NCBI RefSeq assembly: GCF_030848565.1 | Contig: NZ_JAVDDV010000001.1 | Location: forward strand, 186,001-250,000 | From: Natronolimnohabitans sp. A-GB9 | GTDB lineage: Archaea; Halobacteriota; Halobacteria; Halobacteriales; Natrialbaceae | Direction: 5' to 3' | Length of the DNA: 64,000 nucleotides | In this document: in pieces, positions 41,185 through 59,805 of the stretch | Layout: each line of letters begins with the position of its first letter | Position numbering within the stretch: position 1 is the stretch's first letter | Position numbers and translations under genes: made by a program | Notes under the pieces: model-generated | What the model was told of the DNA's origin: nothing | Databases searched by the model: none | Seen by the model: the letters and a program-made list of their open reading frames with translations, nothing else

Positions 41185-44100
41185 GTTTCAACCCCACAAG
41201 GGTTCGTCTGAAACCACGTCCGCGCCGAATTGCACTCGGAGGACAACGGAGTAGCTTCAACCCCACAAGGGTTCGTCTGAAACGAGATCGTCATGGTCGA
41301 CGACCTCGACCGGTGTGCGGCTTCAACCCCACAAGGGTTCGTCTGAAACCGGACAATTGCTACAGGTCCAAGTAGTCGCCGAGTGCTTCAACCCCACAAG
41401 GGTTCGTCTGAAACCGCGCTTGCGGGTCGGTCTGCCGAGTACGCCAGTGAAGCTTCAACCCCACAAGGGTTCGTCTGAAACTCTTGGTTCGGGCGAACGG
41501 CGGCCACGTAATCCTAGATGCTTCAACCCCACAAGGGTTCGTCTGAAACACCCGGTTGATACTGTTCTCAATAGAGCGACCAAGGCTTCAACCCCACAAG
41601 GGTTCGTCTGAAACCGTCGCCCTTGGTGTACTGTCTGAGTTTCTTACTTCGCTTCAACCCCACAAGGGTTCGTCTGAAACAACATCCACCCCGACGAGTT
41701 AGACACACTCGAGCTTCAACCCCACAAGGGTTCGTCTGAAACTTCGTCCACGACTGTCTCGAGCGCCAGAGTGGGGCGCTTCAACCCCACAAGGGTTCGT
41801 CTGAAACGATCAGTGCATCCGTGTCCACGTTCCCGAGGGACGGGCTTCAACCCCACAAGGGTTCGTCTGAAACGCGTCTTGAAGTCGCGTTTCACCGCTG
41901 TCAGATGTTCGCTTCAACCCCACAAGGGTTCGTCTGAAACATGCGTTCATGAAACACTGTTCGCACATTGTGGATGCTTCAACCCCACAAGGGTTCGTCT
42001 GAAACCCCGAGGAGAGCGACGAGCGCGGTCGCAAGCAAGACGCTTCAACCCCACAAGGGTTCGTCTGAAACCGGTCGGCCGGCAGCGGGCGACGGATCTC
42101 CTTGAGGCTTCAACCCCACAAGGGTTCGTCTGAAACGCCGACAGCCGGGCTTCCGTCGATGACGACCAGGCGCTTCAACCCCACAAGGGTTCGTCTGAAA
42201 CGCCGTCATTTCCGGCATCATGGGCAAAAACCCAGACGCTTCAACCCCACAAGGGTTCGTCTGAAACACGACGCCGTCGAAGTGAACCTGGACACCGAAG
42301 GCGCTTCAACCCCACAAGGGTTCGTCTGAAACGCTTCCCGCGCCAGGCGGTTCGCTGGAAGGTTCGCTGGCTTCAACCCCACAAGGGTTCGTCTGAAACG
42401 ACACCGTCGTCGCTTGCGCCCGTGACGCGGATGTCGCTTCAACCCCACAAGGGTTCGTCTGAAACCGGCATCACGACTGAGGACATTGACTTCCCGAACC
42501 CGCTTCAACCCCACAAGGGTTCGTCTGAAACGAGTTCGCGCTTGCGCCAGGTGGCCGTGTTGACGATGCTTCAACCCCACAAGGGTTCGTCTGAAACGCA
42601 CGGATCCGCTCTATCCCCACCTGATCGTCGAGGGCTTCAACCCCACAAGGGTTCGTCTGAAACACTCCGAGCAGCAGCTGGTCGAGATGGGGTACCGAGA
42701 GCTTCAACCCCACAAGGGTTCGTCTGAAACGCGGGCCGAATGATCAAAGATACCATCCTGCCGTTGATGGAGGCTTCAACCCCACAAGGGTTCGTCTGAA
42801 ACACGCTCAGGAAACGATTCTCGAGAACGCTTTCGGTGCTTCAACCCCACAAGGGTTCGTCTGAAACACGGCTGGATGGGGCACACAATCCAGACACAAC
42901 CCGCTTCAACCCCACAAGGGTTCGTCTGAAACTGTCTTAAGGCATTATTCCCACTTGGGACAACGTCGCTTCAACCCCACAAGGGTTCGTCTGAAACCTG
43001 TCGTCTCGAAGGATTATCTTTTGTCATAGTACTGCTTCAACCCCACAAGGGTTCGTCTGAAACCGCGCACCGTCGACGAAGAGCCTCGGCACTGTCCACG
43101 AGCTTCAACCCCACAAGGGTTCGTCTGAAACTCGTAGCGCGGGACGCCCTGCTGTGGCGTAAACTGGCTTCAACCCCACAAGGGTTCGTCTGAAACTCGT
43201 CCACACGACTACTGAGACCGATGACTAACGAGCTTCAACCCCACAAGGGTTCGTCTGAAACGTTGCTCGTTGCCGCTCGAGTCCTCGAGTTCGAGGAGCT
43301 TCAACCCCACAAGGGTTCGTCTGAAACGTTGCTCGTTGCCGCTCGAGTCCTCGAGTTCGAGGAGCTTCAACCCCACAAGGGTTCGTCTGAAACGGTCCTC
43401 GAGGACGTCGTAGTGCCAGTCCTCGTCGCTTCAACCCCACAAGGGTTCGTCTGAAACCGATCGTCGTTCCACCGCCACCGCCGCCATCCGACGCTTCAAC
43501 CCCACAAGGGTTCGTCTGAAACCCGACAACCGAGACGCCTATGCCAACGCTGGAGCGGCTTCAACCCCACAAGGGTTCGTCTGAAACGTACAGATCGGGT
43601 TTCTCGTCGGCACCTTCGTCGATGCTTCAACCCCACAAGGGTTCGTCTGAAACAAGGTTGCCCAGTTGTGGCGGACTATCGACGATGATGCTTCAACCCC
43701 ACAAGGGTTCGTCTGAAACTGTCGGCCTCGGCGGGGGAGACCTTTCTCCAAGTCACGCTTCAACCCCACAAGGGTTCGTCTGAAACCTCCTCAAAACCGT
43801 CAAAGATGTCCGAGGACTTCCAGCTTCAACCCCACAAGGGTTCGTCTGAAACTCGCTGACTAAGCCTATTGCCGTCTGGATGTGTCGCTTCAACCCCACA
43901 AGGGTTCGTCTGAAACGAGCAGCGTGTAGAGGAGTTTGCCGACAACATTGCTTCAACCCCACAAGGGTTCGTCTGAAACTTTCGGGCGTTTCGGGTTCGG
44001 ATTCTGGATGGTATCGCTTCAACCCCACAAGGGTTCGTCTGAAACGCTATCCAGCCGAACCCCGACGAGGAGATCGACGAGCTTCAACCCCACAAGGGTT

Positions 44101-47100
44101 CGTCTGAAACTCCATGCCCCGGTAAGTTTCACAATCCGCGAGTCAATGGCTTCAACCCCACAAGGGTTCGTCTGAAACTGGGATTCAGGCAAGACGCTAA
44201 AAGACCTTGCTGATGCTTCAACCCCACAAGGGTTCGTCTGAAACTCGAGTTCACTCGCGATCAGGTCGTCCTCCTCGAGCGGCTTCAACCCCACAAGGGT
44301 TCGTCTGAAACGCGGGTTCGAGCCAGCGCCGAAACGGATCGTCGACGGGCTTCAACCCCACAAGGGTTCGTCTGAAACACTGGCATCGGCAAAAGTGCCG
44401 CACACAGCGTGACGCTTCAACCCCACAAGGGTTCGTCTGAAACTCGGATCTCGGTTTTCGACCACTCCGCGGCGTGTGGCTTCAACCCCACAAGGGTTCG
44501 TCTGAAACCAGACGCGCCAAGACGCCGGCAATTGGTCTGAGGTCGCTTCAACCCCACAAGGGTTCGTCTGAAACTGTGAAAGCTCACTTCGTCGGGGTCG
44601 ACTCGCTCCGTGCTTCAACCCCACAAGGGTTCGTCTGAAACCGATGAAACCCGACACGGTTTGCTTCGAGTGCGGGCTTCAACCCCACAAGGGTTCGTCT
44701 GAAACTAGTCGACCGGGATTTGACCTAAGTCGTTGTCGCTCGAGCTTCAACCCCACAAGGGTTCGTCTGAAACTCGACGTCGTCCTCCGGGGTATCGTCG
44801 CCGCTGGCGCTTCAACCCCACAAGGGTTCGTCTGAAACGCTTGTATGAGCGACGGTTACGAGTGTCCTGACTGTGGCTTCAACCCCACAAGGGTTCGTCT
44901 GAAACACTGCTCGAGGGCGCGGACTGAGACGGTGCGGGCGCTTCAACCCCACAAGGGTTCGTCTGAAACTCGGAGACGACGATCCAACCGCCGATGGTGG
45001 GACGGCTTCAACCCCACAAGGGTTCGTCTGAAACCCCAACGATCACCTTAGACCCATCATCTAACCCTAGAGCTTCAACCCCACAAGGGTTCGTCTGAAA
45101 CCTTCGCCACCGGCCACGTCGTACATCACAACTCCAATGCTTCAACCCCACAAGGGTTCGTCTGAAACGCGCCGCAACCGTTCGGGATTGCTCCGCGCGT
45201 CGGGCTTCAACCCCACAAGGGTTCGTCTGAAACGAGCGCGTTCGCAACACAGCGTTCCAAAATAAAGCTTCAACCCCACAAGGGTTCGTCTGAAACGTAG
45301 ACGCGCTCGAGGTTCTGCTGTTGCATATCCTCGCTTCAACCCCACAAGGGTTCGTCTGAAACTCGGCGAGCGTCAGCTCGCTTGCGTCAGCCTGGCGGCT
45401 TCAACCCCACAAGGGTTCGTCTGAAACGGCTCGCAGCAGTGGTCGTCGCCGGTATCGTCGGGCTTCAACCCCACAAGGGTTCGTCTGAAACCTGTATAGG
45501 AACAAAGCCAATACCCATCTAACTGTTCGCTTCAACCCCACAAGGGTTCGTCTGAAACACCTAATCGTGCTCACTGGCGACGGTACGGACGCTTCAACCC
45601 CACAAGGGTTCGTCTGAAACGATCATCTCGACCTTTTCGCTGGTGTCGGCGTAGATGCTTCAACCCCACAAGGGTTCGTCTGAAACCGAGGACGTCGTTG
45701 ACGATCGTGTCTGCGAACAGGCTGCTTCAACCCCACAAGGGTTCGTCTGAAACACGGTCTTTGTAGGCATCACCGCCGGGTTCAGGCTTCAACCCCACAA
45801 GGGTTCGTCTGAAACCAGGCCCGCTTTGTTCGTCTCGAGGAGTTCTGGGTGCTTCAACCCCACAAGGGTTCGTCTGAAACCGTCTTGCTGGTCGACGTCG
45901 CCCGGCATGTACTGCCGCTTCAACCCCACAAGGGTTCGTCTGAAACTGTCAGCCCAGCGCGGATCTCGCGCTCGGTGGGTTTGCTTCAACCCCACAAGGG
46001 TTCGTCTGAAACATCTCGAGGAAGAGATGGAGATCGTCTTGGACGAGACGCTTCAACCCCACAAGGGTTCGTCTGAAACCACTGACCGGCACGGCGATGT
46101 CGTGGTCGTCGAGGCTTCAACCCCACAAGGGTTCGTCTGAAACACGCGAGAGCACGAGGCGTTCGTCCGCATCAACCTGCTTCAACCCCACAAGGGTTCG
46201 TCTGAAACGCGGCACTTTTGCCGATGCCACTCACCCAGTCGCGGCTTCAACCCCACAAGGGTTCGTCTGAAACGACGCTCTCCAGGTCGACGGCGAGAAC
46301 GTGTGCCTGCGGCTTCAACCCCACAAGGGTTCGTCTGAAACTGAGCGTCACTGAACTCCGGACGCCAGAAGATGGTGCTTCAACCCCACAAGGGTTCGTC
46401 TGAAACCTTGGCAAACCGATACGAAACTAAAATAAGAGTTAGCTTCAACCCCACAAGGGTTCGTCTGAAACGATCTAACCCAGGTGCCCTGGGATGAGTA
46501 ACAAGCTTCAACCCCACAAGGGTTCGTCTGAAACCAGCGCTTTTACCGTGTCGTCGCTCGAGCCACTGCTTCAACCCCACAAGGGTTCGTCTGAAACTGG
46601 AGTCGCGGGCTCGAGAATCGATTGTAGCTGGTGCTTCAACCCCACAAGGGTTCGTCTGAAACCGCCACACAGCATGGCAGAGTACGTCCCCGAGTGGGGC
46701 TTCAACCCCACAAGGGTTCGTCTGAAACCCGAGTCTAAGACGGTCCGTAGCGCCTCATCTGACGCTTCAACCCCACAAGGGTTCGTCTGAAACTTTCACC
46801 ACAGACCACACACTCCTTATCGTGGTTCTCGCTTCAACCCCACAAGGGTTCGTCTGAAACCGTAGCGTCTTCGCCCATCTCCAAGACTAATAGATCGCTT
46901 CAACCCCACAAGGGTTCGTCTGAAACTAATCAAAGTAACCGAAAGGACAGGGGGTGGCAGTTGGCTTCAACCCCACAAGGGTTCGTCTGAAACTGGCGAA
47001 CAAGAGGCCGATGACTGCCATGATGACGAGGCTTCAACCCCACAAGGGTTCGTCTGAAACAACACGCAACCGCCGAGTACGACGGGGAGTATGGGGCTTC

Positions 47101-47522
47101 AACCCCACAAGGGTTCGTCTGAAACCACATCAGGTCAACGAGAGCGCGGACAAGATCGTCTTGCTTCAACCCCACAAGGGTTCGTCTGAAACTGCCGTCG
47201 CTTCCGATACCGCCGGGTCGCTGTGGCTGCTTCAACCCCACAAGGGTTCGTCTGAAACCAGTTTATCGCTGTTCAGGATCGAAACGTAGTCGCGGCTTCA
47301 ACCCCACAAGGGTTCGTCTGAAACTCGAGACGGTCCTCGAAGAGGGGGACGAAATTGAGGGCTTCAACCCCACAAGGGTTCGTCTGAAACTAACGCGGTG
47401 GGCCGACTCGCTCGTCGACTCGATCGGCTTCAACCCCACAAGGGTTCGTCTGAAACCCGCAGCCAGCGGCGGCTACTCCGCCGATATCCCAGGCTTCAAC
47501 CCCACAAGGGTTCGTCTGAAAC
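41185..47522 (-). CRISPR. CRISPR array 1 (type I-B; 97 repeats, 96 spacers by eye)
   Basis: The 30-bp repeat on the + strand reads GCTTCAACCCCACAAGG followed by GTTCGTCTGAAAC, at a period of about 66 bp (spacers of about 34-38 bp). In the crRNA sense (minus strand) it begins GTTTCAGACGAACCC and ends GGGGTTGAAGC, which matches the haloarchaeal type I-B repeat whose processing leaves an 8-nt 5' handle (here GTTGAAGC). The leader should therefore be at the right end, next to cas2. Counting repeat by repeat gives 97. The repeat is almost invariant; the leftmost (leader-distal) copy at 41185 starts GTTTCAACC. One spacer is present twice in a row (43261-43296 and 43327-43362). Confidence 0.98.
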
Positions 47523-47623
47523 CATGCTCTATTCTTGAGCTACAGTCTCTGTATTGGGCGGCTACGATAAAGAACTTCCGTCGACCCGCAATACTAGCTC
47601 AGCCCACCGGGGTCGACGGAAGT
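47523..47623 (-). promoter_or_regulatory. Leader/promoter of CRISPR array 1
   Basis: 101 bp between the last repeat of array 1 and the cas2 stop codon. It contains a perfect 12-bp inverted repeat, CTTCCGTCGACC at 47575-47586 and its complement at 47611-47622. The inner arm is 52 nt from the first repeat and the arms are 24 nt apart. In the transcription sense the inner arm is followed at once by TTCTTTATCG (possible TATA), then ACTGTAGC about 20 nt before the repeat, and finally CATG. The geometry is the same in leader 2. Confidence 0.75.
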
Positions 47624-47884
47624 TCACAAAAATCGCTGCTCTTCCGTGGGATCTTCACCGTAGACTGTTCGATCGAGAATGGTGTCCGACGAAAGTTCGT
47701 AAATGATAGTCGATTCGCCGGGCTTGAGTAGGTCATCGATCTCATTTCGTAGTTTCTCGAGGTCTCCTTTGGAGATTTCACCCTCGAGGACGGAGTTCTG
47801 GACGTGGGTGAGGTACCGGCGACCGATCTTTAGAGCCTTGTGGGTTCGGTCGGCCTGGAGGTCGTAGACCATGATGACGTACAT
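47624..47884 (-). CDS. cas2: CRISPR-associated endoribonuclease/integrase subunit Cas2
   Basis: An 86-residue Cas2 with a ferredoxin-like fold. It starts MYVIMVYDLQADRTHKALKI, where the VYDL Asp is the conserved acidic position, then RRYLTHVQNSVLEGEISKGD. Cas2 dimers bridge two Cas1 dimers during spacer integration. It is the last gene of the cas operon: its ATG is one base after the cas1 stop, and its own stop is one base from the leader inverted repeat. Confidence 0.95.
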   Translation of the reverse strand: MYVIMVYDLQADRTHKALKIGRRYLTHVQNSVLEGEISKGDLEKLRNEIDDLLKPGESTIIYELSSDTILDRTVYGEDPTEEQRFL

Positions 47885-47885
47885 C

Positions 47886-48878
47886 TCACCACCACCGTTC
47901 GAACGGATCGTACGGCTCGCCCGTCAGGAGGTGCTTTTTGAGTTTGTATGCCTCGAGTCGCAGCAGGTACTGGTAGCTGACCTTTCGGTTGAGGTCGGGG
48001 TGGTCGACGGTGCGCTCAAGGGTTTCCTCGAACGCCTTCGAGTAGGTCTGGCGGCCCCCCTCGGTCAGCAGACACGACCCGAGATCGGTCTCGAAGTCGT
48101 CGTGAGTGATCTGCCCGCGGTTGACCAGGCGAAACAGGACGCGGTCGGCGAGGACGGGTTTGAACAGGTCGGCGAGATCGAGCGATAGCGAGTAGCGCCG
48201 TTCGCCGGGTTCGTGGAGATAGCTGATCGTCGGGTCGAGTGCGGTCGCCCGGATCGCGGAGACGCAGTTGGCGTAGACCAGCGAGTTGCCAAACGAGATC
48301 AAGCTGTTGACCTCATTCGGTGGCGGGTTGTACTCCCGTCTCGAGAGCCGGAACTCCTCGGGGAGGATCTCGTTGAACGTCCGGTAGTAGATCTTTCGTG
48401 CGGTCGCCTCGATCCCCATGAGTTCGTCGACGGGAAGGTCGTCAGCGACACGGTCGGCTGCCGCCTCGAGGTCAGCGATTTCAGTCTCGATATCGCGGCC
48501 GCGACCGTCGTAATAGACGGCGTTGGTTCGCATGTTGTGGATGCTTCCGGAGACGATCGATGCGGCGAGTCGTCGCCGGTGGTCCTTGTCCTCGTAGGCG
48601 GTGACCTGCGAGACGACGGTTTGTCCTGAGGTCTGGCCCCGCTCCGGCATGATCGACCCAGTGTAATAGTCCCCCCAGCCAAACACGTGCATGGCGACGC
48701 CTTCTTGGTTCAGAAACGACATCAAGCGAGTATTGAAGTCGATCTGGCCGTGGAGGAACAGCGCCTCGGCGTTCTCGATCGGGATGTACTTTTTCTCGTC
48801 GTCGTCGGTGACGATCCGGACCGTGTCGTCTTTGCGTTCGATGCGACCGTCTGAAAACACGTGGTAGTTTCTGTCCAT
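47886..48878 (-). CDS. cas1: CRISPR-associated integrase Cas1
   Basis: A 330-residue type I-B Cas1, the metal-dependent integrase that inserts new spacers at the leader end. It starts MDRNYHVFSDGRIERKDDTV. The catalytic residues are visible as the Glu in the IEATARKIYYRTFNEILPEE region, His in SYLHEPGERRYSLSLDLADL, and the acidic group DLADLFKP just after. An upstream start five codons earlier lacks family support. The start overlaps the last few bases of cas4's region, in keeping with a tight operon. Confidence 0.95.
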   Translation of the reverse strand: MDRNYHVFSDGRIERKDDTVRIVTDDDEKKYIPIENAEALFLHGQIDFNTRLMSFLNQEGVAMHVFGWGDYYTGSIMPERGQTSGQTVVSQVTAYEDKDHRRRLAASIVSGSIHNMRTNAVYYDGRGRDIETEIADLEAAADRVADDLPVDELMGIEATARKIYYRTFNEILPEEFRLSRREYNPPPNEVNSLISFGNSLVYANCVSAIRATALDPTISYLHEPGERRYSLSLDLADLFKPVLADRVLFRLVNRGQITHDDFETDLGSCLLTEGGRQTYSKAFEETLERTVDHPDLNRKVSYQYLLRLEAYKLKKHLLTGEPYDPFERWW

Positions 48879-48880
48879 GA

Positions 48881-49429
48881 TCAACACCAGCAAAAGTCGT
48901 GGTACGCACAGGCCTCACAGAATGGCTTTTCCTCCGCAGACGGTGGCGATTCTCGAGTCACCACATCGTAGATTCCGCGGATGGCGGCCTCGACTTTCTC
49001 TGTGCGTTCCTCAGTGAGTTCGACCGGTTCCCGCTTGCGTTCACGGGGGTGAGCGAGCACGCCGTTCCGCTCGACGTCGGCGACGTGCTCGAGATACCAG
49101 AGGTAGTACGATAGCTGCATCCGCGCCGGTTCGGTCAGCGCCGAGGATGGTTTGACCTCGAGAATTCGGCCGTCCTCTAAGACGTCGAGCGAGATCATCC
49201 CGAGGTGGAGGTTGCGGCGGTTCTCGCTGTAGGCGGTATCGTCGACTCGAGTGCCGCGGACGACCGTGGGGTTTTCGCGATCGATCTCGAGATTGCGCGA
49301 TTCGAACCAGAGCTCACGCGTACAGACGTGGTAGTACTGCATCATCACGCCGGTGACGCGAAACGGCTCGTCGGTTGGGTTTCCGCGGGCAGTCTCGAGG
49401 AGACGTGAGACGGGATCTGGCTCGGTCAC
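48881..49429 (-). CDS. cas4: CRISPR-associated exonuclease Cas4
   Basis: A 182-residue RecB-like nuclease that trims prespacers and helps choose PAM and orientation. The first Fe-S Cys is in VTGVMMQYYHVCTRELWFES, and the last three are in FCEACAYHDFCWC at the C terminus. The nuclease motifs are DVLEDGRILEVKPSSAL (D and E-x-K) and the following Gln helix RMQLSYYLWYLEH. The start overlaps the cas3 stop by four bases. All key residues are present. Confidence 0.94.
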   Translation of the reverse strand: MTEPDPVSRLLETARGNPTDEPFRVTGVMMQYYHVCTRELWFESRNLEIDRENPTVVRGTRVDDTAYSENRRNLHLGMISLDVLEDGRILEVKPSSALTEPARMQLSYYLWYLEHVADVERNGVLAHPRERKREPVELTEERTEKVEAAIRGIYDVVTRESPPSAEEKPFCEACAYHDFCWC

Positions 49430-52047
49430 AGGAACCTCCGCTCGACGGTGTTGTCCGGAACGACGAAGCCGGTCGTTGGATCGAAGAAGTCAGCGAACTC
49501 CGGCCTCGAGGGGTCGACGTACCGGACATCCGCCTCGGGATGAATCGGTGGGAGGTCCCCAAGTTCTCGTGCTTCCTTCGAATCGGCACTGTAAAACGGA
49601 ACCGACACCTGTCTCGTTCGGAGGTCGTCCATTCGCCGGTTGACTTCGTCGAACTCGTAGCGGTCCACTGCATTCTCAATAGCGTCCACGGCCGCCCGTT
49701 CTTCGTCCGTTCGACAGACGACGACATCGATGGCGTTGCGCTGGTCGATCAGCGAGAGGTTCTCGAGTTCGTCGGCCCGGGCCTCGTCGACATAGCTCGC
49801 GTACGTCTCTTTCCCGACGTTTTTCTCCCGGTGAAGGGCCTCGTAGTATTTTTCGACGGCGTCCTTTGCGACCGCGGTTTCCTCGAGGAACTCCCCGTCG
49901 CCACGGACGGACTCGAGGGTCCGCGCAGCGACTGGCAAGAGAGAGACGCCGCGATTGTACACCGCTTCTGCAGGGGTCCTCTCTTGTTCTTCGGGTGCCT
50001 CGAGCCACCAGACGGTGACCTCGCCCCGATCTCGTTCGAACGAGCGGTTGCACCTTCCGGCAGCCTGGACGATGCTGTCGATCGGCGCGAGATCACGATA
50101 GACGCGGTCGAAGCTGATGTCGACACCAGCTTCGACGAGCTGGGTCGAGATCGTGAGAAACGGGTGTCCGCGTCCGGTCAGTTCCTTCGCTGTCTCGATC
50201 AGGGTGAGCCGATCGACGGGACGAAGCCGGGTCGAGAGATGTAGAATAGACAGATCTCCAGCGGCTTCGGCCCGCTTGGCAACCGCCGCTGGATCGACAG
50301 CCTCTGGATCGCCCACGGCCTCGAGTTCGTCGGCGTAGATTTCTCCGATATCTACCAGCCCAGGGGACCGTTGTGCCACGAGTTCGGTCAGCTTTCTCGC
50401 GCTGTCGATCGTGTTACAGACCGCGAGCGTGGCGTCGCCACCCTCGAGGGTCTCGAGTAGTTCCGTTACCGCATCGTCGTATGACTTCGCGCCGTCTTGT
50501 TCGTCGATGTACCGTTCCGTCGACTGATCGAGACGGTACCGGACGCGTTCGGTCGCCTCGAAGTACGCAGTCGGCTCGTCGACGAGTTCAACTGCGCTGT
50601 CGAACAGTTGCGGCTGTGTCGCGGTCATCGCGATAACCGTCGCGTCGTATCGTTCCGTTAGCATCGTCACGAGACGAGGAACGAGTTTCCACCAGTCGAG
50701 CGGAAGGCTCTGTGGCTCGTCGAGGACGATAACGCTGTTTCGGAGCGCAGGAACCTTCATCGACTGCTTGTTCGCCGGGCCTGCCAGACTCTCGAACAGC
50801 TGGACGAACGTCGTCACAGTCAGGCCGGCCCGCCAGCTCTCGGCGAGCATTCCGGCGACGTCGTCGTGTAAGTCCGCTTTGTCGACGTCACCCTCGTTTA
50901 CGTCGCGGATCGTGGTCTCCGCGAGATGGTGGTGAGCGGTGAGCAGACGGCCCGCAGTATCGGTCTCGTAGATGTCTTGGGCTTCGTCGACCACCTGATC
51001 GATGATGCTGGTAAACGGGAGTGCGTAGACGATCCGTTCGCCGCCGGTTCGGTTCCGGATGGAGAGTGCCGCTGACAGTCCGGCGAGAGTCTTGCCCATT
51101 CCCGTTGGCAACGTAATCGTCGCGACACCACCGCCGTCGTCGGCGAACGACTCCGCGTTCTCGAGGACGGTCGACTGTGCCCGCGAACGGTAGTGGTTCA
51201 GCCGTTCACTCCGGGTTCCCTCCGGGTCGGCACACGCATCAGCCTCGAGGTCGCCGATGTACTCGTCAAGTCGCTCGAGGCTCGGTTGCTCGGCCGCATA
51301 GGCGTCCTCGGAGAGTTCCGATGCTCTCGAAGCCGAGGCAGCACTCGTCTTGTCCGCGAGCACGAGCGATCCCCAGCATTCCAGAACGAGTGCGTAACAC
51401 GACGCAGACAGCGACCCCCGGTCGACGCCAGGGCCGGTTCCTGTCGCCGCGACGGTCGATTCAATTTCTCCGAGTAACTCGAGGAACCCCTCGCAGAACG
51501 CCTCCCACGATCCGTTTCCAGCCGTCGCTTTCTGGATGATTTCACTTGCGAGGTCAGGGACGTGATCGTCGATGTTCTCAAGTTGCTTTGCGACAATTAC
51601 CTGCCTCTTTTCATCGGTGTTCCAATCACTCGGAGAGACGTTCTCGCGACGGTGGGAACGATCGAACACGTACTTCGCGATGTCCGGCAGGGCTCCGTGG
51701 TGTTTCCCAACGGCGACAAAGCCCGCGAGACAGGTCTCGGCGTCGTACCCGCGGGCGTCTAGCGCGTAGTAGGCGGTGAACGCTCCGACTGGTGCGTGGT
51801 ACCGATACCGTTCGTCCGGCGGCGTTCCTGACTGCACCCCGAGATACTGCTGAAAGTGCGTTGTCGCCTTCCCGAAGTCGTGGACGTACGCGAGTGTCTC
51901 GACAACGTCCCTCATAGGCTCTCCCGCAGGCGTCCGGGCGTCTGACGGCACCACGTATCGGACGCGTTCGGTCACGTCCTCGAGGTGGTCCCACAGGAAG
52001 ACGCCGTCGTGTCCCTCATCGGGTGGATGTGAGTACCGAGTCGCCAT
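49426..52047 (-). CDS. cas3: CRISPR-associated helicase-nuclease Cas3
   Basis: An 873-residue Cas3 that unwinds and degrades DNA marked by Cascade. The N-terminal HD nuclease domain shows YVHDFGKATTHFQQYLG (HD at about residues 56-57) and VAVGKHHGALPDIAKYVFD. The helicase follows with Walker A TLPTGMGKTLAGLSAALSIR, Walker B-type VIVLDEPQSLPLDWWKLVPR, and motif SAT-like VIAMTATQPQLFDS; the second RecA domain has LTISTQLVEAGVDISFDRVY and QAAGRCNRSFERDRGEV. I set the start at MATRYSHPPDEGHDG (52047), next to the cas5 stop. No motif is lost. Confidence 0.95.
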   Translation of the reverse strand: MATRYSHPPDEGHDGVFLWDHLEDVTERVRYVVPSDARTPAGEPMRDVVETLAYVHDFGKATTHFQQYLGVQSGTPPDERYRYHAPVGAFTAYYALDARGYDAETCLAGFVAVGKHHGALPDIAKYVFDRSHRRENVSPSDWNTDEKRQVIVAKQLENIDDHVPDLASEIIQKATAGNGSWEAFCEGFLELLGEIESTVAATGTGPGVDRGSLSASCYALVLECWGSLVLADKTSAASASRASELSEDAYAAEQPSLERLDEYIGDLEADACADPEGTRSERLNHYRSRAQSTVLENAESFADDGGGVATITLPTGMGKTLAGLSAALSIRNRTGGERIVYALPFTSIIDQVVDEAQDIYETDTAGRLLTAHHHLAETTIRDVNEGDVDKADLHDDVAGMLAESWRAGLTVTTFVQLFESLAGPANKQSMKVPALRNSVIVLDEPQSLPLDWWKLVPRLVTMLTERYDATVIAMTATQPQLFDSAVELVDEPTAYFEATERVRYRLDQSTERYIDEQDGAKSYDDAVTELLETLEGGDATLAVCNTIDSARKLTELVAQRSPGLVDIGEIYADELEAVGDPEAVDPAAVAKRAEAAGDLSILHLSTRLRPVDRLTLIETAKELTGRGHPFLTISTQLVEAGVDISFDRVYRDLAPIDSIVQAAGRCNRSFERDRGEVTVWWLEAPEEQERTPAEAVYNRGVSLLPVAARTLESVRGDGEFLEETAVAKDAVEKYYEALHREKNVGKETYASYVDEARADELENLSLIDQRNAIDVVVCRTDEERAAVDAIENAVDRYEFDEVNRRMDDLRTRQVSVPFYSADSKEARELGDLPPIHPEADVRYVDPSRPEFADFFDPTTGFVVPDNTVERRFL

Positions 52048-52048
52048 C

Positions 52049-52867
52049 TCAGACGAACACCACGGTTCGCCCGTCGACGCAGCACAGCTCCACATTTTTG
52101 ACTTTGAGCGAACCGGCGTCGGGATTGTACGTGTAGGCCGTGAAGCCGGCAGTCGTCCGCCCGCCGGCGTCGGTCGTCATGAACGCGGGCGACTCCTCGA
52201 CTTGACACCGCGTGCCGGGCTCTAAGACGACGTCCTCGACGGCATCGGGGACTGCCGAGTCTATCTCGACTTTCTCACCGCTCGGCCCGGGTTCGACCTC
52301 GAACTCGCCGTGGTACTCGAGTTCCGCGAGGTGTTCCGAGAGACCGAGACTGGGGACGTAGTGGCTCTTGCCGGCCTCGAGCGTTTCCCGGAGTTCCCGA
52401 TACCGCTCTTCGTCAGCCAGCCAGAGGTCGATCCGATACGCTGGCTCGACGAGGACCTCGTAGTTGTGCTGTTGACGAAGCGTCGTCGGGTCTGGGAGTT
52501 TCACGCTAAGCTTTCCCCGGCCGTTGAGCGACTGGAGGTTCCCGTCGGCTGTCGAGAGCGTGTTCATCGGCATGTTGATCGTCCGAATCTCGCTGACGGG
52601 CTCGATCGCCACCGCGGACTCACCGGGTGCGAACAGGTCGTAGTAGCCATCGCGTTCGATGCCGAGGACGGCGGCGAATAGCCCGGCGACGGTGGTCCGC
52701 GGGATGATCCGGTAGGTCTGCTTGACGACGTTCCCCTCGATCCGCCGGAAGTGTCCCCACGGGCCACGAACGGTGACGGAGAGACAGCGCTCGGGTGAGA
52801 CGGTGTCGCCACTATTAGTGTCGCTCTCGTCGTCTCCTGCCCACTGTTCGAGCGATTCCTGTTCCAT
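52049..52867 (-). CDS. cas5: Cascade subunit Cas5 (type I-B)
   Basis: A 272-residue Cas5h protein that caps the 5' handle of the crRNA in Cascade. The N-terminal RAMP strand is CLSVTVRGPWGHFRRIEGNV, followed by TYRIIPRTTVAGLFAAVLGI, the typical Cas5 phrase. The C-terminal part has the glycine-poor RAMP ending AYTYNPDAGSLKVKNVELC. The ATG at 52867 lies at the cas7 stop; a GTG two codons earlier is possible. Confidence 0.92.
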   Translation of the reverse strand: MEQESLEQWAGDDESDTNSGDTVSPERCLSVTVRGPWGHFRRIEGNVVKQTYRIIPRTTVAGLFAAVLGIERDGYYDLFAPGESAVAIEPVSEIRTINMPMNTLSTADGNLQSLNGRGKLSVKLPDPTTLRQQHNYEVLVEPAYRIDLWLADEERYRELRETLEAGKSHYVPSLGLSEHLAELEYHGEFEVEPGPSGEKVEIDSAVPDAVEDVVLEPGTRCQVEESPAFMTTDAGGRTTAGFTAYTYNPDAGSLKVKNVELCCVDGRTVVFV

Positions 52868-52869
52868 CG

Positions 52870-53946
52870 TCACTCGGCGGCGTCCGGCAGCGTCGTGGTG
52901 TGTTCCTCGTAAACGTCGACGACCTCGACGGCCTCCGAACCGAGTGCGTCCTCGAGTGCGTCGTACAGCACCTCGGGACCGCCGACCTCGTCGTCGTAGG
53001 ACAACTCGAGGACGTCACTCGCGACCACGCGCACGCGCTCGACCCGCCCACTCGCGTTCGCCAGCCGATCGACGAAGCCGTCGACCTCGAGGGTCAGATC
53101 CCGGACCGTCCGGAGTTCCTCTTCGGGTTCCGAGCGTTCCTGGTCGAGCTCGAGGTCCCGATCGAGGCCGCCGAGGTGGAAACTCTCCTCGGCGTACTCG
53201 ACGCGACAGTACAGCCGCGGTTCCTGGCCGACCTTGCTCCGGGAGATCGTCTGGTTCTTGATCGCCCGCCAGCAGAGCGTATCGAGTCGCTCGATGTCGT
53301 CCGTGGTGAGTTTCGTATCCTCGGCTCCGTGTTCGTCCACGAGCCCGTGGAAGCGAATGAGTCCGTACTGAATGCGATGATCGTCCAAATCGAAGCCACC
53401 CTGTTCTTTCCCCTCCTGGGTCGCGATCACGCTCGTCAGGCTGTCGTACTCCTCGTTTTCGTTGACGGCGTGGATCGACTTCCCTGGTGAGAACTGGACG
53501 GGCCCGGTGAAGTGATCCGGCAGGTGTTTCGCGTACTCGTCGTCGGTGTCGACCGACATCGTCGCACCGAAGTACCGGACGTCGACACTGTTGTCGAGGA
53601 ACTCGCCGAAGACGTCCTCGCGGAACTGTTGAGCCTCTTCGTCGTCCTCGAGGTCGTAGTCGTCGTAGTCGACGGCTTTCAGTCGGTCCTCGAGGAGTTC
53701 CCCGCGGGTATACTGAGTCCCCTCTTCGTTGACGTTCCGGATGTAGACGCCGTGACCGTCGTCGTCGAGCTGGTCACGGAGGTATCGTTTCAGGCGGACG
53801 TCGGTGACGATCGCCTGCTGGGTCTGGGGGTCGATCCGCGGGCGGTTCGCCCCGCTAAGGGGGTTACCGTTCGGGTTCGCGTCGACGGCGTCGTACAGGA
53901 AGACGATTTCGGAGCGGTTCTCTACGGTGTCAGCTGTGTCTGTCAT
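52870..53946 (-). CDS. cas7: Cascade backbone subunit Cas7 (Csh2 type)
   Basis: A 358-residue Cas7/Csh2 protein, the repeating subunit that holds the crRNA spacer. It begins with the family stretch SEIVFLYDAVDANPNGNPLS and RIDPQTQQAIVTDVRLKRYL. The middle contains DVRYFGATMSV, HFTGPVQFSPGKSIHAVNEN and HRIQYGLIRFHGLVDEHGAE, all typical of Csh2. It directly follows cas8b. Confidence 0.94.
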   Translation of the reverse strand: MTDTADTVENRSEIVFLYDAVDANPNGNPLSGANRPRIDPQTQQAIVTDVRLKRYLRDQLDDDGHGVYIRNVNEEGTQYTRGELLEDRLKAVDYDDYDLEDDEEAQQFREDVFGEFLDNSVDVRYFGATMSVDTDDEYAKHLPDHFTGPVQFSPGKSIHAVNENEEYDSLTSVIATQEGKEQGGFDLDDHRIQYGLIRFHGLVDEHGAEDTKLTTDDIERLDTLCWRAIKNQTISRSKVGQEPRLYCRVEYAEESFHLGGLDRDLELDQERSEPEEELRTVRDLTLEVDGFVDRLANASGRVERVRVVASDVLELSYDDEVGGPEVLYDALEDALGSEAVEVVDVYEEHTTTLPDAAE

Positions 53947-53947
53947 C

Positions 53948-56122
53948 TCAGTGTTCCTCCTCGAGGTCGGGTTGGTCGTCGGACTCTACGTTCTCCCAGT
54001 CTGGGTGGTCGTTCATGCCGTAGGTAATCCCGAGCGCGTAGTAGAAGCGGAGGTCGTCGGTATCGATCTCCCACTCGTCTGGGTCGGGATCGAGGATCGT
54101 CTCCCGGAGCCGGTCGACGATGTAGTCCGCCTTGGTGCCAGGATAGGACTTGCCCTCTTTCTTTTCTTGACGTGTGTAGGTGAGCGTCTTCGCGATTGTC
54201 TCCTGGGTTACCTTCTTGATCCGCGACCGGGTGATCGACTTCACGGGATACTGATCGACCAGCGTCGTCGATCGGTCCTCACTGTACTCCTGGTAGCTCG
54301 CGATGTCACCGACGAGCGCGCCGAGTAAGAACGCACCACGGCGTTCGTCGGTGATCGATGGCCCGTCGGGATCGGGCGCGAGTGCAGGCGTGTCTTGGAT
54401 AAACGATTCGAGTTTCGCGTCTGCGGGGTGGCCCCCGTCAGTGGCTAGTATGTCCGGAATTTCCATCGTGTATTCCTCATAGGTCGGTTCGCGCGTGATC
54501 GGTTCTTTCTCCGTATCGGACGTGGTGAGCAACTCGAGGTCGCCGTCGGCGAGTGCACACAGCTGGGCGAACTGGCTCGCAACCAGAAACGACGGGAAGC
54601 CGTCGTACTCGTCGTCGGTTTCCTCACTGATGATGCGGGAGACGAACTCCTCGAGTAGCACGTCGACGGTGATCGGCTCACCGCTCAGGACGTTGACCAG
54701 CGCCTGAATGCGTGGGTCGTCCGCGTCGGCGTCAGTGTCGTCGCGTTCGGCGAACGTCTGGTAGAAATACCAGCCCGTCGAGACCGCGTGAAGCCGGTTG
54801 TCATCACCCGCGAGCAGTTCCCACTTCTCGTTTGTCGGCATCGGTGCCGTCCAATCGTCTCCCTCGTCGGTGACAAACGCCGAGGTGTTCTGAACCAGCC
54901 GATTGTGCCTAAAGGCGAGTTCCTTCGGGTAGTGCAACTGGCCGTTCAGCGTCTCACCGAAAACGTCGTAGCGAGACATCTGGTGGGGCATCACCGCTGA
55001 GACGTAGAATCGAAGGGACGTCTCATCGAGGTCACGTTCCCTGTGCTCTTCGTAGGCATCCTCGATCGGGGTCGTATCCCCGTCGTCTGCTGCCCGATAA
55101 AGAAGCCCGTACAGATCGCGGGCCTTCTCGGACGTCGGTCGCCCGAAGAAGTACGGCAGGTAGTAGACCTTGGCACCAAACGTTCGGTACGTACAGGCCT
55201 CGACGAACGCCTCCGCGTTCATTACCGTCACGGCGGCGTCTTCGGAAATCGGGTGGGATCGCCACGCCTCCTCGATGTCCAGCCCCGGGAACTTTTCGAG
55301 TTGCTTGCCGAGGAAGTAGTTCTGTGGGTCTTCTGAGGTCCCCACCGTCCGGGACGGCTCTCGTGTGACGAGGTCCGTCGCGTCCCCTGAGGAGTCGTCG
55401 GCCTTGTTCTTGGTGACGAGCTTCGAGAGCTTCCGTCGCCGCATCGCCTCGAGGAAGACGTCGACCTCACCGGGCCAGCGATACTCGCCGTCTGTCTCGG
55501 TCTTCACCTGAACTGTCAGAAGTGCAGTCGCGGATTCGCCACCGAGGCTCGTCTTCACGCCGTCTTCAATGGCCTCGAGAACATCCTCGTCCTCGCTGAG
55601 TTCGGCGAGTTTCTCGACGATCCAGCCGTCTTCGTGGGCGTCGGCGGCTGTTTCTACTACATCATCGGTTGCCCACTTGGTGAGGCGCTCTTTCGCGTAT
55701 CGAGCGAGCTTCTCCGGATCGCTGTCGCGTCCGGCCTGATGGGTGACGCTGTGGTCGATCCCGCGTGCAGCCGGATACTTACAGTGGCTAACCTGCTGGA
55801 CCAGCCCCTCTGTATACCGTGTCAGCCAGACTGCGCCGAGGTGATCGTCGGCGAGCCGTGGCTCCGTACCCGAAACGTCGACGCGAACGACGAGCAGGCT
55901 GTCGTCCGTGTCGATCAGATCGTCCGCGGCGTCGGGCGTCAGGTATGGCGCATACTCCCCGCCACCGGTAGTGGCGAGCGTGTAGAGTTTCCCGTAGAGG
56001 TACTGCAAGTCCCGAAGCGACCCGATGGGGGAGTCCGGCAACTCCTCGGCTAACTCCTCGTCGTCGTAGGCGTCGCGGAACGCTTCAGGCGAAAGCATCC
56101 TCTCCCTCGAGTTCGGTTTCAC
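53948..56122 (-). CDS. cas8b: Cascade large subunit Cas8b (Csh1 type)
   Basis: A 724-residue large subunit that recognises the PAM and recruits Cas3. The N-terminal part reads LRDLQYLYGKLYTLATTGGG and later LLVVRVDVSGTEPRLADDHL. Middle phrases YFLGKQLEKFPGLDIEEAWR and the C-terminal AFLLGALVGDIASYQEYSED with RFYYALGITYGMNDHPDW match haloarchaeal Csh1 proteins. No zinc knuckle is seen. It starts at MKPNSRERMLSPEAF or at the internal MLSPEAF (56098); both overlap the end of cas6. Confidence 0.92.
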   Translation of the reverse strand: MKPNSRERMLSPEAFRDAYDDEELAEELPDSPIGSLRDLQYLYGKLYTLATTGGGEYAPYLTPDAADDLIDTDDSLLVVRVDVSGTEPRLADDHLGAVWLTRYTEGLVQQVSHCKYPAARGIDHSVTHQAGRDSDPEKLARYAKERLTKWATDDVVETAADAHEDGWIVEKLAELSEDEDVLEAIEDGVKTSLGGESATALLTVQVKTETDGEYRWPGEVDVFLEAMRRRKLSKLVTKNKADDSSGDATDLVTREPSRTVGTSEDPQNYFLGKQLEKFPGLDIEEAWRSHPISEDAAVTVMNAEAFVEACTYRTFGAKVYYLPYFFGRPTSEKARDLYGLLYRAADDGDTTPIEDAYEEHRERDLDETSLRFYVSAVMPHQMSRYDVFGETLNGQLHYPKELAFRHNRLVQNTSAFVTDEGDDWTAPMPTNEKWELLAGDDNRLHAVSTGWYFYQTFAERDDTDADADDPRIQALVNVLSGEPITVDVLLEEFVSRIISEETDDEYDGFPSFLVASQFAQLCALADGDLELLTTSDTEKEPITREPTYEEYTMEIPDILATDGGHPADAKLESFIQDTPALAPDPDGPSITDERRGAFLLGALVGDIASYQEYSEDRSTTLVDQYPVKSITRSRIKKVTQETIAKTLTYTRQEKKEGKSYPGTKADYIVDRLRETILDPDPDEWEIDTDDLRFYYALGITYGMNDHPDWENVESDDQPDLEEEH

Positions 56123-56906
56123 CCGGCCGGGTTCGATCCGTGACGTTCACGAACCCCAGCCCGAGCGAGTTTCGTTCTCCGAGACCGACGTCCAGCGCGA
56201 GGTTGAGGTGTCTGCGGTGGTTGTCGTCCCGGACAGTATACTCGAACTTCCACTTGCTCAACACGTAAGTCATCTCCTGGCCCTCGGTTACCGTCACCGG
56301 CACTGCGAACGTCTTGAGCAGCTCGTAGCCGTCGAACAGGTCGCCGTCGACCTCGCTCGGTCCTGGCAGATACTCGGGTGCGAACAGCCGATGTTTCTTA
56401 TCGAGGTTGGCCTCGAGCTGTTCCATCAGTGGCTTAGTGCTATGTGAAGGCCGCCAGAAGACTGCCGTATCACCGCCAGGATGGTCGATCCCGTACTCGT
56501 CGCACTGCCACGGCGGGATTCGAACGAGCAACCCGGTCCCCGTCTCGAGTGTTCCCCGCGTGCCCGGTTCGCCGACGTCAGGCTCGAGAGAGCTCACGTC
56601 CTCGACGTGAAACGGCATCTCGCCGACGTTCAGCTCTCGGTCTGCGAGCAAATCCTTGGCGACATGTGCAAGGACCTCCTCATCGTGTGAGGCGACGAGA
56701 AGTTTCCGCTCGTCACCCTCGCGCATGTCGCCTGGTGGGAACGGATTCGACATCACGAATCCTGGTGGTTCGTCCGTATCGTGGGCTGCGTCGTAGTCAG
56801 TCCCCTCGAGCGCCTGCCAGATTCGCCCACGGAGCTTGTGGTGGTAGGCGTTGTCGTAGGCAGCGTCCGCTCGAGCGGACAGGTGTGCCATGAGGCGCAC
56901 CGTCAA
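56085..56906 (-). CDS. cas6: CRISPR RNA endoribonuclease Cas6
   Basis: A 273-residue RAMP endoribonuclease that cuts the pre-crRNA within the repeat and leaves the 8-nt 5' handle. It starts RLMAHLSARADAAYDNAYHH with the N-terminal Tyr/His-rich helix, and the C-terminal glycine-rich loop LNLALDVGLGERNSLGLGFV is the family signature. A GGAGGT ribosome-binding site lies 5 nt before a TTG at 56906; a GTG at 56900 and an ATG at 56891 are alternatives. It is the first gene of the cas operon. Confidence 0.92.
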   Translation of the reverse strand: MTVRLMAHLSARADAAYDNAYHHKLRGRIWQALEGTDYDAAHDTDEPPGFVMSNPFPPGDMREGDERKLLVASHDEEVLAHVAKDLLADRELNVGEMPFHVEDVSSLEPDVGEPGTRGTLETGTGLLVRIPPWQCDEYGIDHPGGDTAVFWRPSHSTKPLMEQLEANLDKKHRLFAPEYLPGPSEVDGDLFDGYELLKTFAVPVTVTEGQEMTYVLSKWKFEYTVRDDNHRRHLNLALDVGLGERNSLGLGFVNVTDRTRPGETELEGEDAFA

Positions 56907-56956
56907 TGGTAACCTCCATTTCTAATATACATAATGCCTGAAACTAGTTAGAGATA

Positions 56957-56966
56957 GGTTATAAAG
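56957..56966 (-). promoter_or_regulatory. Probable promoter (TATA) of the cas operon
   Basis: CTTTATAACC on the minus strand, about 50 bp before the cas6 start. The expected transcription start near 56935 would give a leader of about 30 nt that carries the GGAGGT ribosome-binding site. The region lies between cas6 and the leader-distal end of array 2. Confidence 0.5.
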
Positions 56967-57041
56967 GTGGTGTTCAACTACCATGCGGTTAGAATCAAAC
57001 AAAAGGCCAGCGGAGCGGTCGAGCCAGTTCACCAACCAAGT

Positions 57042-59705
57042 GCTTCAACCCCACAAGGGTTCGTCTGAAACTCGAAGCACCCGACCGTGACGCGTTCCTC
57101 GTAGCTGGCTTCAACCCCACAAGGGTTCGTCTGAAACTTGCTCCGTCCGCTGGCGGGACACCAGCATTTCGTACTTCAACCCCACAAGGGTTCGTCTGAA
57201 ACTCTCCGGACGGTACTGAACAACTCCCGAACCAGCGACTTCAACCCCACAAGGGTTCGTCTGAAACTGGTGCCCACACTTTCCATCGGGATACTTCGCC
57301 TTGCTTCAACCCCACAAGGGTTCGTCTGAAACCTCGGCGACGGTGAGAGTGTAACCGTCCCCCAGGACGCTTCAACCCCACAAGGGTTCGTCTGAAACCG
57401 GATATGACGCTATCCAAAAGTGGTTGGAGATTGACGCTTCAACCCCACAAGGGTTCGTCTGAAACGGTCTGCCGAGTTGTCGGGATACCGCCAATCCAGA
57501 GGCTTCAACCCCACAAGGGTTCGTCTGAAACAATGTTGACCCTGAAACACTTGAAACGAACTGGGAGGCTTCAACCCCACAAGGGTTCGTCTGAAACCGC
57601 CGTCAGTCGCTGCAACTAAGGACGTTTGAGGGGCTTCAACCCCACAAGGGTTCGTCTGAAACCGGCAGTACCGCCCGCGACGTCCGTCGAGAAGTCGACG
57701 CTTCAACCCCACAAGGGTTCGTCTGAAACCTCGTCGAGCGGCGGCCGGTCGCCCGAATCGCGGAAGCTTCAACCCCACAAGGGTTCGTCTGAAACCAATC
57801 ATCACCACAAATCGGGCACTCTTCTGTAGGGCTTCAACCCCACAAGGGTTCGTCTGAAACTCGCAGACGATGATGTCCGAGTGGTGTGACCGATGCTTCA
57901 ACCCCACAAGGGTTCGTCTGAAACCGCTCGCTTTTTCAAGTCCCTTATCACCCCACTTCGCTTCAACCCCACAAGGGTTCGTCTGAAACCATCCCCGCCC
58001 GAAACCGCTTCGGAGGCTTCTAGGCGCTTCAACCCCACAAGGGTTCGTCTGAAACCATATCTTACAGTCCATGTCGGAAGCCTCGAAAGAGGCTTCAACC
58101 CCACAAGGGTTCGTCTGAAACCGGGCTTGCGTGCCCCTCGAGCAATCACTCTATTTGGCTTCAACCCCACAAGGGTTCGTCTGAAACCCGTGGTAGCGGG
58201 AGTGACCTATACATTGACGGGAAGCTTCAACCCCACAAGGGTTCGTCTGAAACTCTGATGCACGGGACAAGGCGCGTGAAATCCTCGAGCGGCTTCAACC
58301 CCACAAGGGTTCGTCTGAAACGAGTGCTCCCGCGACTAATCCTAGTACACCTATCAGTGCTTCAACCCCACAAGGGTTCGTCTGAAACCGTAGAGTGCAG
58401 CCCGTGTCTTCTCGTCACGAATCGCTTCAACCCCACAAGGGTTCGTCTGAAACGAGTACAAAGACTTCGTGCTCATTATCTTCTGGCCCGCTTCAACCCC
58501 ACAAGGGTTCGTCTGAAACGCCGAAAACACAACCGAACTCGAGGCTAACTTTGCTGCTTCAACCCCACAAGGGTTCGTCTGAAACGCGAGTCGCTGTTCG
58601 AGTTTGACCCGTCCTGGGACGCTTCAACCCCACAAGGGTTCGTCTGAAACAAGCGACCGCTGACAGTATCTTAGACATTATCGAAGAGGCTTCAACCCCA
58701 CAAGGGTTCGTCTGAAACCAGAAGATTTCGATGGCGTTGGTATCCGCCTCAGCTTCAACCCCACAAGGGTTCGTCTGAAACGATCTCCGATGGGAGGCTG
58801 TAGTCGAAGATGAAGACGCTTCAACCCCACAAGGGTTCGTCTGAAACCGGCGGACGCTCTCAAGGCTCCGTCTACGCGGGTACGGCTTCAACCCCACAAG
58901 GGTTCGTCTGAAACGATCTCGTCGAAGACGTGGTATCTGTCGTCGAGAGCTTCAACCCCACAAGGGTTCGTCTGAAACGCCGACCACGATCAACGCGACG
59001 CCGACTTTACCGAGGCTTCAACCCCACAAGGGTTCGTCTGAAACCCGTAGGCGATATCGTCGCGGACGGACTTGACGCGGCTTCAACCCCACAAGGGTTC
59101 GTCTGAAACGCCAGATGAGGCCGAGACGATCGAGGCGGAGGTGGTGCTTCAACCCCACAAGGGTTCGTCTGAAACTGTCCCTCGACCGCGAGACCGCCGA
59201 GTCCCTATACGAGCTTCAACCCCACAAGGGTTCGTCTGAAACCGTCCTCGCCACCTGCGCCTCGAGCAACGACGTGGGCTTCAACCCCACAAGGGTTCGT
59301 CTGAAACGGCCTGTACGAACTGGTCGACGATCCACGCGAGAGCCGCTTCAACCCCACAAGGGTTCGTCTGAAACTGGCCAGACGTGTCAACATCGCCAAC
59401 AACGCCCTTGCTTCAACCCCACAAGGGTTCGTCTGAAACCGCGAGCCTGTCCGATTTCGGAGGGAACGCGGATGAGTGCTTCAACCCCACAAGGGTTCGT
59501 CTGAAACGGCCGCTGTGGCGGCCTGGCGACGGCGCGAGCCGAGGCTTCAACCCCACAAGGGTTCGTCTGAAACATTTCGCGCTTGGTGCTGTCTCGCCAT
59601 ATCCCAAGTGCTTCAACCCCACAAGGGTTCGTCTGAAACTGGAACGAGTGGTTCGATGAGCTTTGTTCTCGGACCGCTTCAACCCCACAAGGGTTCGTCT
59701 GAAAC
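57042..59705 (-). CRISPR. CRISPR array 2 (type I-B; 41 repeats, 40 spacers by eye)
   Basis: Same 30-bp repeat and same orientation as array 1, with a period of about 66 bp. Counting gives 41 repeats. The leader is at the right end (59706 onwards), and the leader-distal end abuts the cas6 promoter region. Two leader-distal repeats, at 57173 and 57238, begin ACTTCAACC in place of GCTTCAACC, which changes the last base of the 5' handle to T in the crRNA sense. No spacer appears repeated within this array by eye. Confidence 0.98.
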
Positions 59706-59805
59706 CATGGCCGGAAACGACGCCACAGTATCCTCATCGTGAGAAACAGACATATGTCTTCCGTCGACCTCGAGTATGCGATAAACAGCAGGGGGTCGAC
59801 GGAAC
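59706..59805 (-). promoter_or_regulatory. Leader/promoter of CRISPR array 2
   Basis: This holds the same architecture as leader 1. An inverted repeat CTTCCGTCGACC (59758-59769) and GGTCGACGGAA (59794-59804) has arms 24 nt apart and its inner arm 52 nt from the first repeat, matching 11 of 12 bases. In the transcription sense it is followed by ACATATGTCT (TATA-like), ACTGTGGC and CATG at the same positions as in leader 1. Outside these motifs the leaders differ. Confidence 0.75.

Follow-up and report, generated by a model that had tools for sequence, protein, structure and literature searches.

How new spacers are directed to the leader end of a clustered regularly interspaced short palindromic repeats (CRISPR) array in archaea without integration host factor (IHF) is an open problem. 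A 64,000-nucleotide (nt) stretch of Natronolimnohabitans sp. A-GB9 (contig NZ_JAVDDV010000001.1, positions 186,001–250,000, hereafter the window) carries an element that bears on it. Two arrays, both on the minus strand, lie on either side of a type I-B operon. A preliminary description of this DNA had noted one inverted repeat in both leaders and had taken it for a protein-binding site that serves either transcription of the precursor CRISPR RNA (pre-crRNA) or leader-end integration by Cas1-Cas2-Cas4. What is this palindrome, and which of the two functions would it serve? The element was found to be a class-wide module of haloarchaeal type I-B leaders, about 100 nt long.

Palindrome in the Window Leaders

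In both window leaders the element has the form TTCCGTCGACC-N24-GGTCGACGGAA, and the inner arm, as an 11-base-pair (bp) core, stands 53 nt from the first repeat. The inverted repeat had been described as 12 bp long in both leaders. This was exact for leader 1, where the 12-mer CTTCCGTCGACC is found at 47575–47586 of the plus strand and its exact complement at 47611–47622. The arms of leader 2 are at 59758–59769 (plus strand) and 59794–59805, but the outer one, GTTCCGTCGACC, has one mismatch in 12 positions, so the arm common to both leaders is 11 bp. The distance of 52 nt given for the inner arm is true of the 12-mer in leaders 1 and 2 alike, and CATG abuts the repeat in both, as had been stated. 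The two leaders were also said to be largely different otherwise. Outside the arms they are indeed mostly unlike: 74 positions agree in 160 nt, and 23 in the final 52 nt.

A scan of the window for single arms, with two mismatches allowed, gave 23 occurrences against 24 expected, which is chance level. The signal therefore resides in the pairing of the arms and in their position. The window operon and array fit type I-B, with cas8b/Csh1, cas7/Csh2, cas5h and cas1_HMARI present.

Other Arrays of the Same Genome

The exact 11-mer has 16 copies in the 4.3-Mb genome, and six of them make three inverted pairs with an identical 35-nt offset. All three exact pairs precede CRISPR arrays: the two in the window and one on another contig (locus L031), where the pair lies 53 nt upstream of a third array with a differing repeat, GTTCCAGATCTACCCTTGTAGGCTCGAAGC. 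A fourth array on that contig (3845–7038, repeat GTTCCAGAACTACCCTTGTGGGCTCGAAGC) has an intact inner arm at the usual distance, and its outer arm carries two mismatches. The element is common to four arrays with three repeat types in one genome, and the L031 arrays differ from the window arrays in their repeats and in the proximal part of their leaders.

Locus L031 (genome G000, contig C32, 3845–18527) holds a second I-B effector operon and two arrays with at least 49 and at least 59 repeat copies. Cas4, Cas1 and Cas2 were not among the nine proteins scanned at this operon (I-B cas6-8b-7-5-3), and no cas1 of this family other than the window copy was found in the genome. For these reasons, the L031 arrays are presumably served in trans by the window Cas4, Cas1 and Cas2. 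Two neighbouring spacers of L031 (14746–14779 and 14815–14848) match each other exactly in reverse complement for 34 nt, which would fit two acquisitions of one protospacer, one in each orientation.

Conservation among Haloarchaeal Leaders

Haloarchaeal loci were gathered by Cas1 similarity without use of the motif, arrays were called by repeat periodicity, and leaders were aligned at the repeat without gaps. The set comprised about 54 haloarchaeal leaders, including two added Haloarcula/Haloferax plasmid loci and the genome studied here; the second array of locus L080, methanogen loci and bacterial loci were left out. The inner arm started at exactly -64 in 52 of the approximately 54 leaders. 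The outer arm of these 52 leaders started at -99 in one half and at -100 in the other, giving an interior of 24 or 25 nt; an interior of 26 nt was seen by eye in some Haloferax leaders. The spacing of 24 nt originally noted thus holds for both window leaders; elsewhere in the class 25 nt also occurs, and now and then 26 nt.

The interior of the palindrome, a feature absent from the preliminary description, is itself conserved and oriented, with a C5G5 run beside the outer arm and TATTG beside the inner arm. Within each half-site of the 52 leaders, TC at positions 6–7 and the innermost ACC form a core that hardly varies. On the side facing away from the interior, conservation is poor for TTCC in the outer arm but good for GGAA in the inner arm. 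The place of the element is immediately before the first repeat, at the array end from which the repeat reads GTTNCAG. It is present in Haloarcula hispanica, for which leader-end acquisition has been demonstrated experimentally (PMC3936756). Methanobrevibacter-type I-B leaders fetched via Cas1 similarity did not have the element.

In two loci of a presumed Haloferax (L296 and L303, genome G112), the arms are unchanged, CTACTTAAACRAACCC replaces C5G5, and the repeat has AAGCTGGT in its middle. At L080 (16799–17296), a second tandem array of eight repeats lacks the element and directly follows an array of 76 repeats that has it.

Class-Wide Distribution

A pattern search with up to three mismatches matched 84 of 391 haloarchaeal genomes; the reversed control matched only a handful. 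A sequence-only model of the 100-nt leader was used for the class scan and matched 174 of the 391 genomes, in 67 of 86 genera. Among 101 haloarchaeal genomes carrying cas1b (cas1_HMARI above the curated cut-off), 99 had the element, and so did 59 of 259 genomes without detected cas1 of this family (E 1e-20). A CRISPR repeat followed at the expected distance in all 90 of the 90 best-match loci fetched, 88 recognized automatically and two (L125 and L205) by eye; these are not 90 independent genomes, some having been fetched twice. In genomes without detected cas1, a further 64 loci were put to the same test; 48 had an array, and most of the remaining 16 had a single or decayed repeat at the corresponding place. 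The element was observed before solitary, paired or decayed repeats at L039, L053, L227 and L263. Such sites might include mini-CRISPRs or CreTA-like antitoxin genes.

Matches occurred only inside Halobacteriales; about 180 genomes outside this order, in a phylum-wide sample of 217 genomes, gave no model match. A single exact pattern, TCGACCCCC-N16-22-GGTCGACGGAA, gave no match in viral contigs. The sequence of the element, its geometry, its distribution and its association with arrays were read directly from these genomes. The preliminary description had considered that close relatives might lack the palindrome, or that it might be a common dispersed element. Close as well as distant relatives carry it. 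A dispersed palindromic repeat unrelated to CRISPR was rejected, as strong matches precede arrays or solitary and decayed repeats.

Half-Sites in DNA or a Hairpin in RNA

The palindrome of leader 1 can pair and lies a few nt past the cas2 stop codon, and could be read as an RNA hairpin, whether as an insulating or terminating structure behind cas2 or as a fold at the 5' end of the pre-crRNA. Pairing among the 52 leaders argues otherwise. The outer three arm positions pair in only 31–34 of them. Where the G position has changed, the outer arm most often carries A, usually with no matching substitution in the inner arm, so that A-C stands in 10 of 52. Such degenerate pairing would be expected of two protein-bound half-sites and not of a stem. 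The element is found, too, before arrays not preceded by cas2, among them that of window leader 2 and the two of L031, and the putative transcript start is downstream of the palindrome. Because of the arm pairing across the 52 leaders, the hairpin was rejected as a very improbable explanation.

Both half-sites are altered, to CAGTCGAC and GTCGACTG, in three leaders of two genomes (L102 and L103), whose Cas1 proteins, at 55–56% identity, have diverged more than any other haloarchaeal ones collected. This joint change would be expected if both half-sites track one changing DNA-binding partner. The earlier proposal that conserved spacing implies a protein-binding site is strongly supported across the class by these comparisons, and the element is predicted to be such a spacing-conserved site.

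Putative Promoter and Leader-Repeat Junction

At the end of the inner arm stands CGGAAA or CGAAA, followed by TATA-like positions at about -50 to -44, TA at -31/-30, and CTGTG or CTATG at about -22 to -18. These promoter positions were compared by eye, and several leader groups have only a weak TATA. The promoter motifs of Haloferax are CGAAA for the transcription factor B recognition element (BRE), TTWT for the TATA box and WW at -10 (PMC4983044). A TATA box TTWT about 27 nt before the start and WW at -10 were taken as the haloarchaeal core promoter. A leader promoter with the BRE at the inner-arm end, TATA at about -50 to -44 and a start near -21 is plausible, its order and approximate spacing being Haloferax-like. 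This predicted geometry fits the transcription model of the preliminary description. The ACTGTnGC that was placed at the start in that model coincides with the putative start near -21, but it is merely part of the start-site and stem-loop region, not a separate conserved element.

Immediately before the repeat lies a short inverted repeat with a variable stem sequence, found in the window at 47523–47545 and 59706–59728. A perfect stem of at least 5 bp was present in 53 of 111 unique leader ends. When 3' parts were swapped between leaders 200 times, a control that ignores kinship, such stems averaged 22 and never exceeded 30. Regions neighbouring the junction showed no stem excess over the swaps. 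The excess at the junction is suggestive. The features of the window are listed in Table 1.

Table 1. Coordinates of arrays, leader features and cas operon in the window.
Feature	Position	Strand	Remarks
CRISPR array 1	41185..47522	-	97 repeats GTTTCAGACGAACCCTTGTGGGGTTGAAGC; leader end 47522
Leader 1, junction-proximal short inverted repeat GCTC...GAGC	47526..47540	-	
Leader 1, putative TATA box TTTAT	47567..47571	-	Predicted; preceded by BRE-like end of inner arm
Leader 1, inner arm GGTCGACGGAA	47576..47586	-	Leader positions -64..-54
Leader 1, palindrome interior, 24 nt	47587..47610	-	CCCCGG.GGG on far side; TATTG (47589-47593) adjoining inner arm
Leader 1, outer arm TTCCGTCGACC	47611..47621	-	-99..-89; cas2 stop codon a few nt before
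Type I-B operon cas6-cas8b-cas7-cas5-cas3-cas4-cas1-cas2, complete	47624..56906	-	
CRISPR array 2	57042..59705	-	41 repeats; leader end 59705
Leader 2, putative TATA box ATAT	59752..59755	-	Predicted
Leader 2, inner arm GGTCGACGGAA	59759..59769	-	-64..-54
Leader 2, palindrome interior, 24 nt	59770..59793	-	Class consensus matched less well
Leader 2, outer arm TTCCGTCGACC	59794..59804	-	-99..-89

Integration or Transcription

Protein binding, the promoter elements and a role in integration are predictions from sequence comparison. The preferred reading, to which roughly an even chance is given, is that the element is a docking site for an accessory factor or for Cas1-Cas2-Cas4, which would guide leader-end integration and would be built around the promoter, with a transcriptional side effect possible. 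The distal part (-100 to -54) would be a bipartite DNA-binding site, with half-sites TCGACC and GGTCGA about 35 bp apart that enclose the oriented core of C5G5 and then TATTG. A class-conserved accessory protein, or Cas1-Cas2-Cas4, would bind the half-sites, and the bound site would mark the leader end, so that new spacers enter at the first repeat. It would thereby stand in for IHF with the upstream motif of types I-E and I-F, and for Csa3a with its distal motif in Sulfolobus. The pre-crRNA promoter would sit inside the module, with the inner half-site running into the BRE at its outer end; the bound protein may for this reason also influence transcription. A narrower version is held more tentatively, at somewhat below even chance: a dedicated, class-conserved non-IHF protein would bridge or bend the half-sites, present the junction to Cas1-Cas2-Cas4 and couple integration to the promoter, as a euryarchaeal counterpart of IHF.

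Integration needs a constant distance to the repeat and transcription does not, so the near-fixed distance favours docking. Arrays with different repeats share the element in one genome, which was counted for a role in integration, and its absence from the second tandem array of L080 was listed in favour of the same reading. Partial Mantel tests were carried out on 36 loci, comparing palindrome distance with protein distances, species phylogeny being uncontrolled. After control for the interference proteins, palindrome distance was correlated with the adaptation proteins (partial r 0.15, p 0.018; 0.13, p 0.046 without L102 and L103). The reverse test gave 0.10 (p 0.11) and, without L102 and L103, 0.08 (p 0.17). 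With single genes, the values were 0.18 (p 0.002) for cas1 given cas7 and 0.06 (p 0.26) for cas7 given cas1; cas6 predicted palindrome distance about as well as cas1. Arm distances thus appear to track Cas1-2-4 slightly better than the Cascade proteins. The rigid phasing and this weak co-evolution would favour the docking model of the preliminary description.

Several results weigh against docking. The co-evolution with Cas1-2-4 is weak, with small effects and species phylogeny uncontrolled. Of 18 genomes with cas7 and no detected cas1, 15 have the element next to arrays. Its scores are lower without detected cas1 (with cas7 present, median -log10 E 13.4 vs 16.3, p 0.012; without cas1 or cas7, median 11.9, p 6e-6). 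In genomes without detected cas1, the palindrome parts had decayed no more than the promoter, a comparison that does not choose between the models, because the loci were selected by the element itself. The promoter motifs are also phased to the element. The last point and the retention without detected cas1 would suit a palindrome that is purely an activating or repressing site for a haloarchaeal transcription factor just upstream of BRE and TATA, setting the pre-crRNA level with no role in integration. The same is true of the BRE-like inner-arm end and the TATA-like, TA and CTGTG/CTATG positions, which match the Haloferax motifs, and of the transcription start sites reported for all three Haloferax volcanii CRISPR RNAs (PMC4983044). 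Such a purely transcriptional role nevertheless accounts neither for a distance to the first repeat that is constant to within a nucleotide nor for the slightly better fit of arm distance to Cas1-2-4 than to Cascade, and it is given clearly less weight than docking. Passive copying deserves very little credence. Arrays and leaders are mobile, leaders within one genome can be near-identical, and the palindrome could be kept by descent and recent exchange as leaders and arrays move or duplicate as units, its geometry being unselected. However, the window leaders keep arms and spacing with only 23 of 52 proximal positions alike, the L031 arrays carry other repeats and other proximal leaders, and the TC and ACC of the arms are nearly invariant across 67 genera while their neighbours vary.

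The short, near-fixed element, with its presence in nearly all haloarchaeal cas1b genomes, can be used as bait for finding the binding factor, and it gives an exact target for mutational tests in genetically tractable hosts. It is also a practical marker that orients arrays and locates leaders, including those of solitary or decaying arrays.

Comparison with Known Leader Systems

A published description of the palindrome was not found by a search that missed several key leader papers, so an earlier account is possible. The element was classed as a phased leader motif, a kind known from other CRISPR types. Type I-D leaders hold conserved motifs that control acquisition. The type II-A leader-anchoring sequence is likewise a conserved leader motif controlling acquisition; in the systems cited, the sequences of importance lie no more than about 10 bp from the junction (PMC9456107). 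In Methanosarcina mazei, the type I-B leader is bound by MM_0565; the haloarchaeal model had no match in about 180 genomes outside Halobacteriales, and the fetched methanogen leaders did not have the element.

Within the haloarchaea, Wang et al. in 2016 reportedly described mid-repeat AACCC/GTGGG motifs in the Haloarcula hispanica repeat. These concern the same organism group and the same integration step, but lie inside the repeat and not in the leader. The leader of Haloarcula hispanica was reported to be important for adaptation (cited in PMC7521656). Locus C of Haloferax volcanii acquires no spacers for an unknown reason, which leader differences may explain; leader identity was reported as 95% versus 75% in the locus C context (PMC7521656). 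The presumed chromosomal Haloferax leaders L302 and L293 have an intact palindrome. On this weak ground, palindrome loss is probably not the cause of locus C inactivity.

In type I-A of Sulfolobus islandicus, Csa3a binds a distal leader motif and acts in transcription and Cas1 integration, and Cas1 prefers a leader-proximal stem-loop (PMC9456107). The haloarchaeal leader is similar in layout, with a distal motif and a stem-loop at the repeat; a csa3 gene was not identified in the window operon. Sulfolobus leaders are 200–400 bp or more (PMC4390879, PMC5815122), compared with about 100 nt in haloarchaea, and integration in Sulfolobus requires one or more unidentified host factors and at least 400 bp of leader (PMC5815122).

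Types I-E and I-F use an IHF site and an upstream Cas1 motif, read by a host protein and Cas1-Cas2 (PMC5815122, PMC8616872). Unlike these, the haloarchaeal site consists of two palindromic half-sites about 35 bp apart around a C5G5/TATTG core and was seen only in haloarchaea in the samples searched. Like the I-E and I-F motifs, which give leader-end integration its specificity, the haloarchaeal element is phased to the leader-repeat junction.

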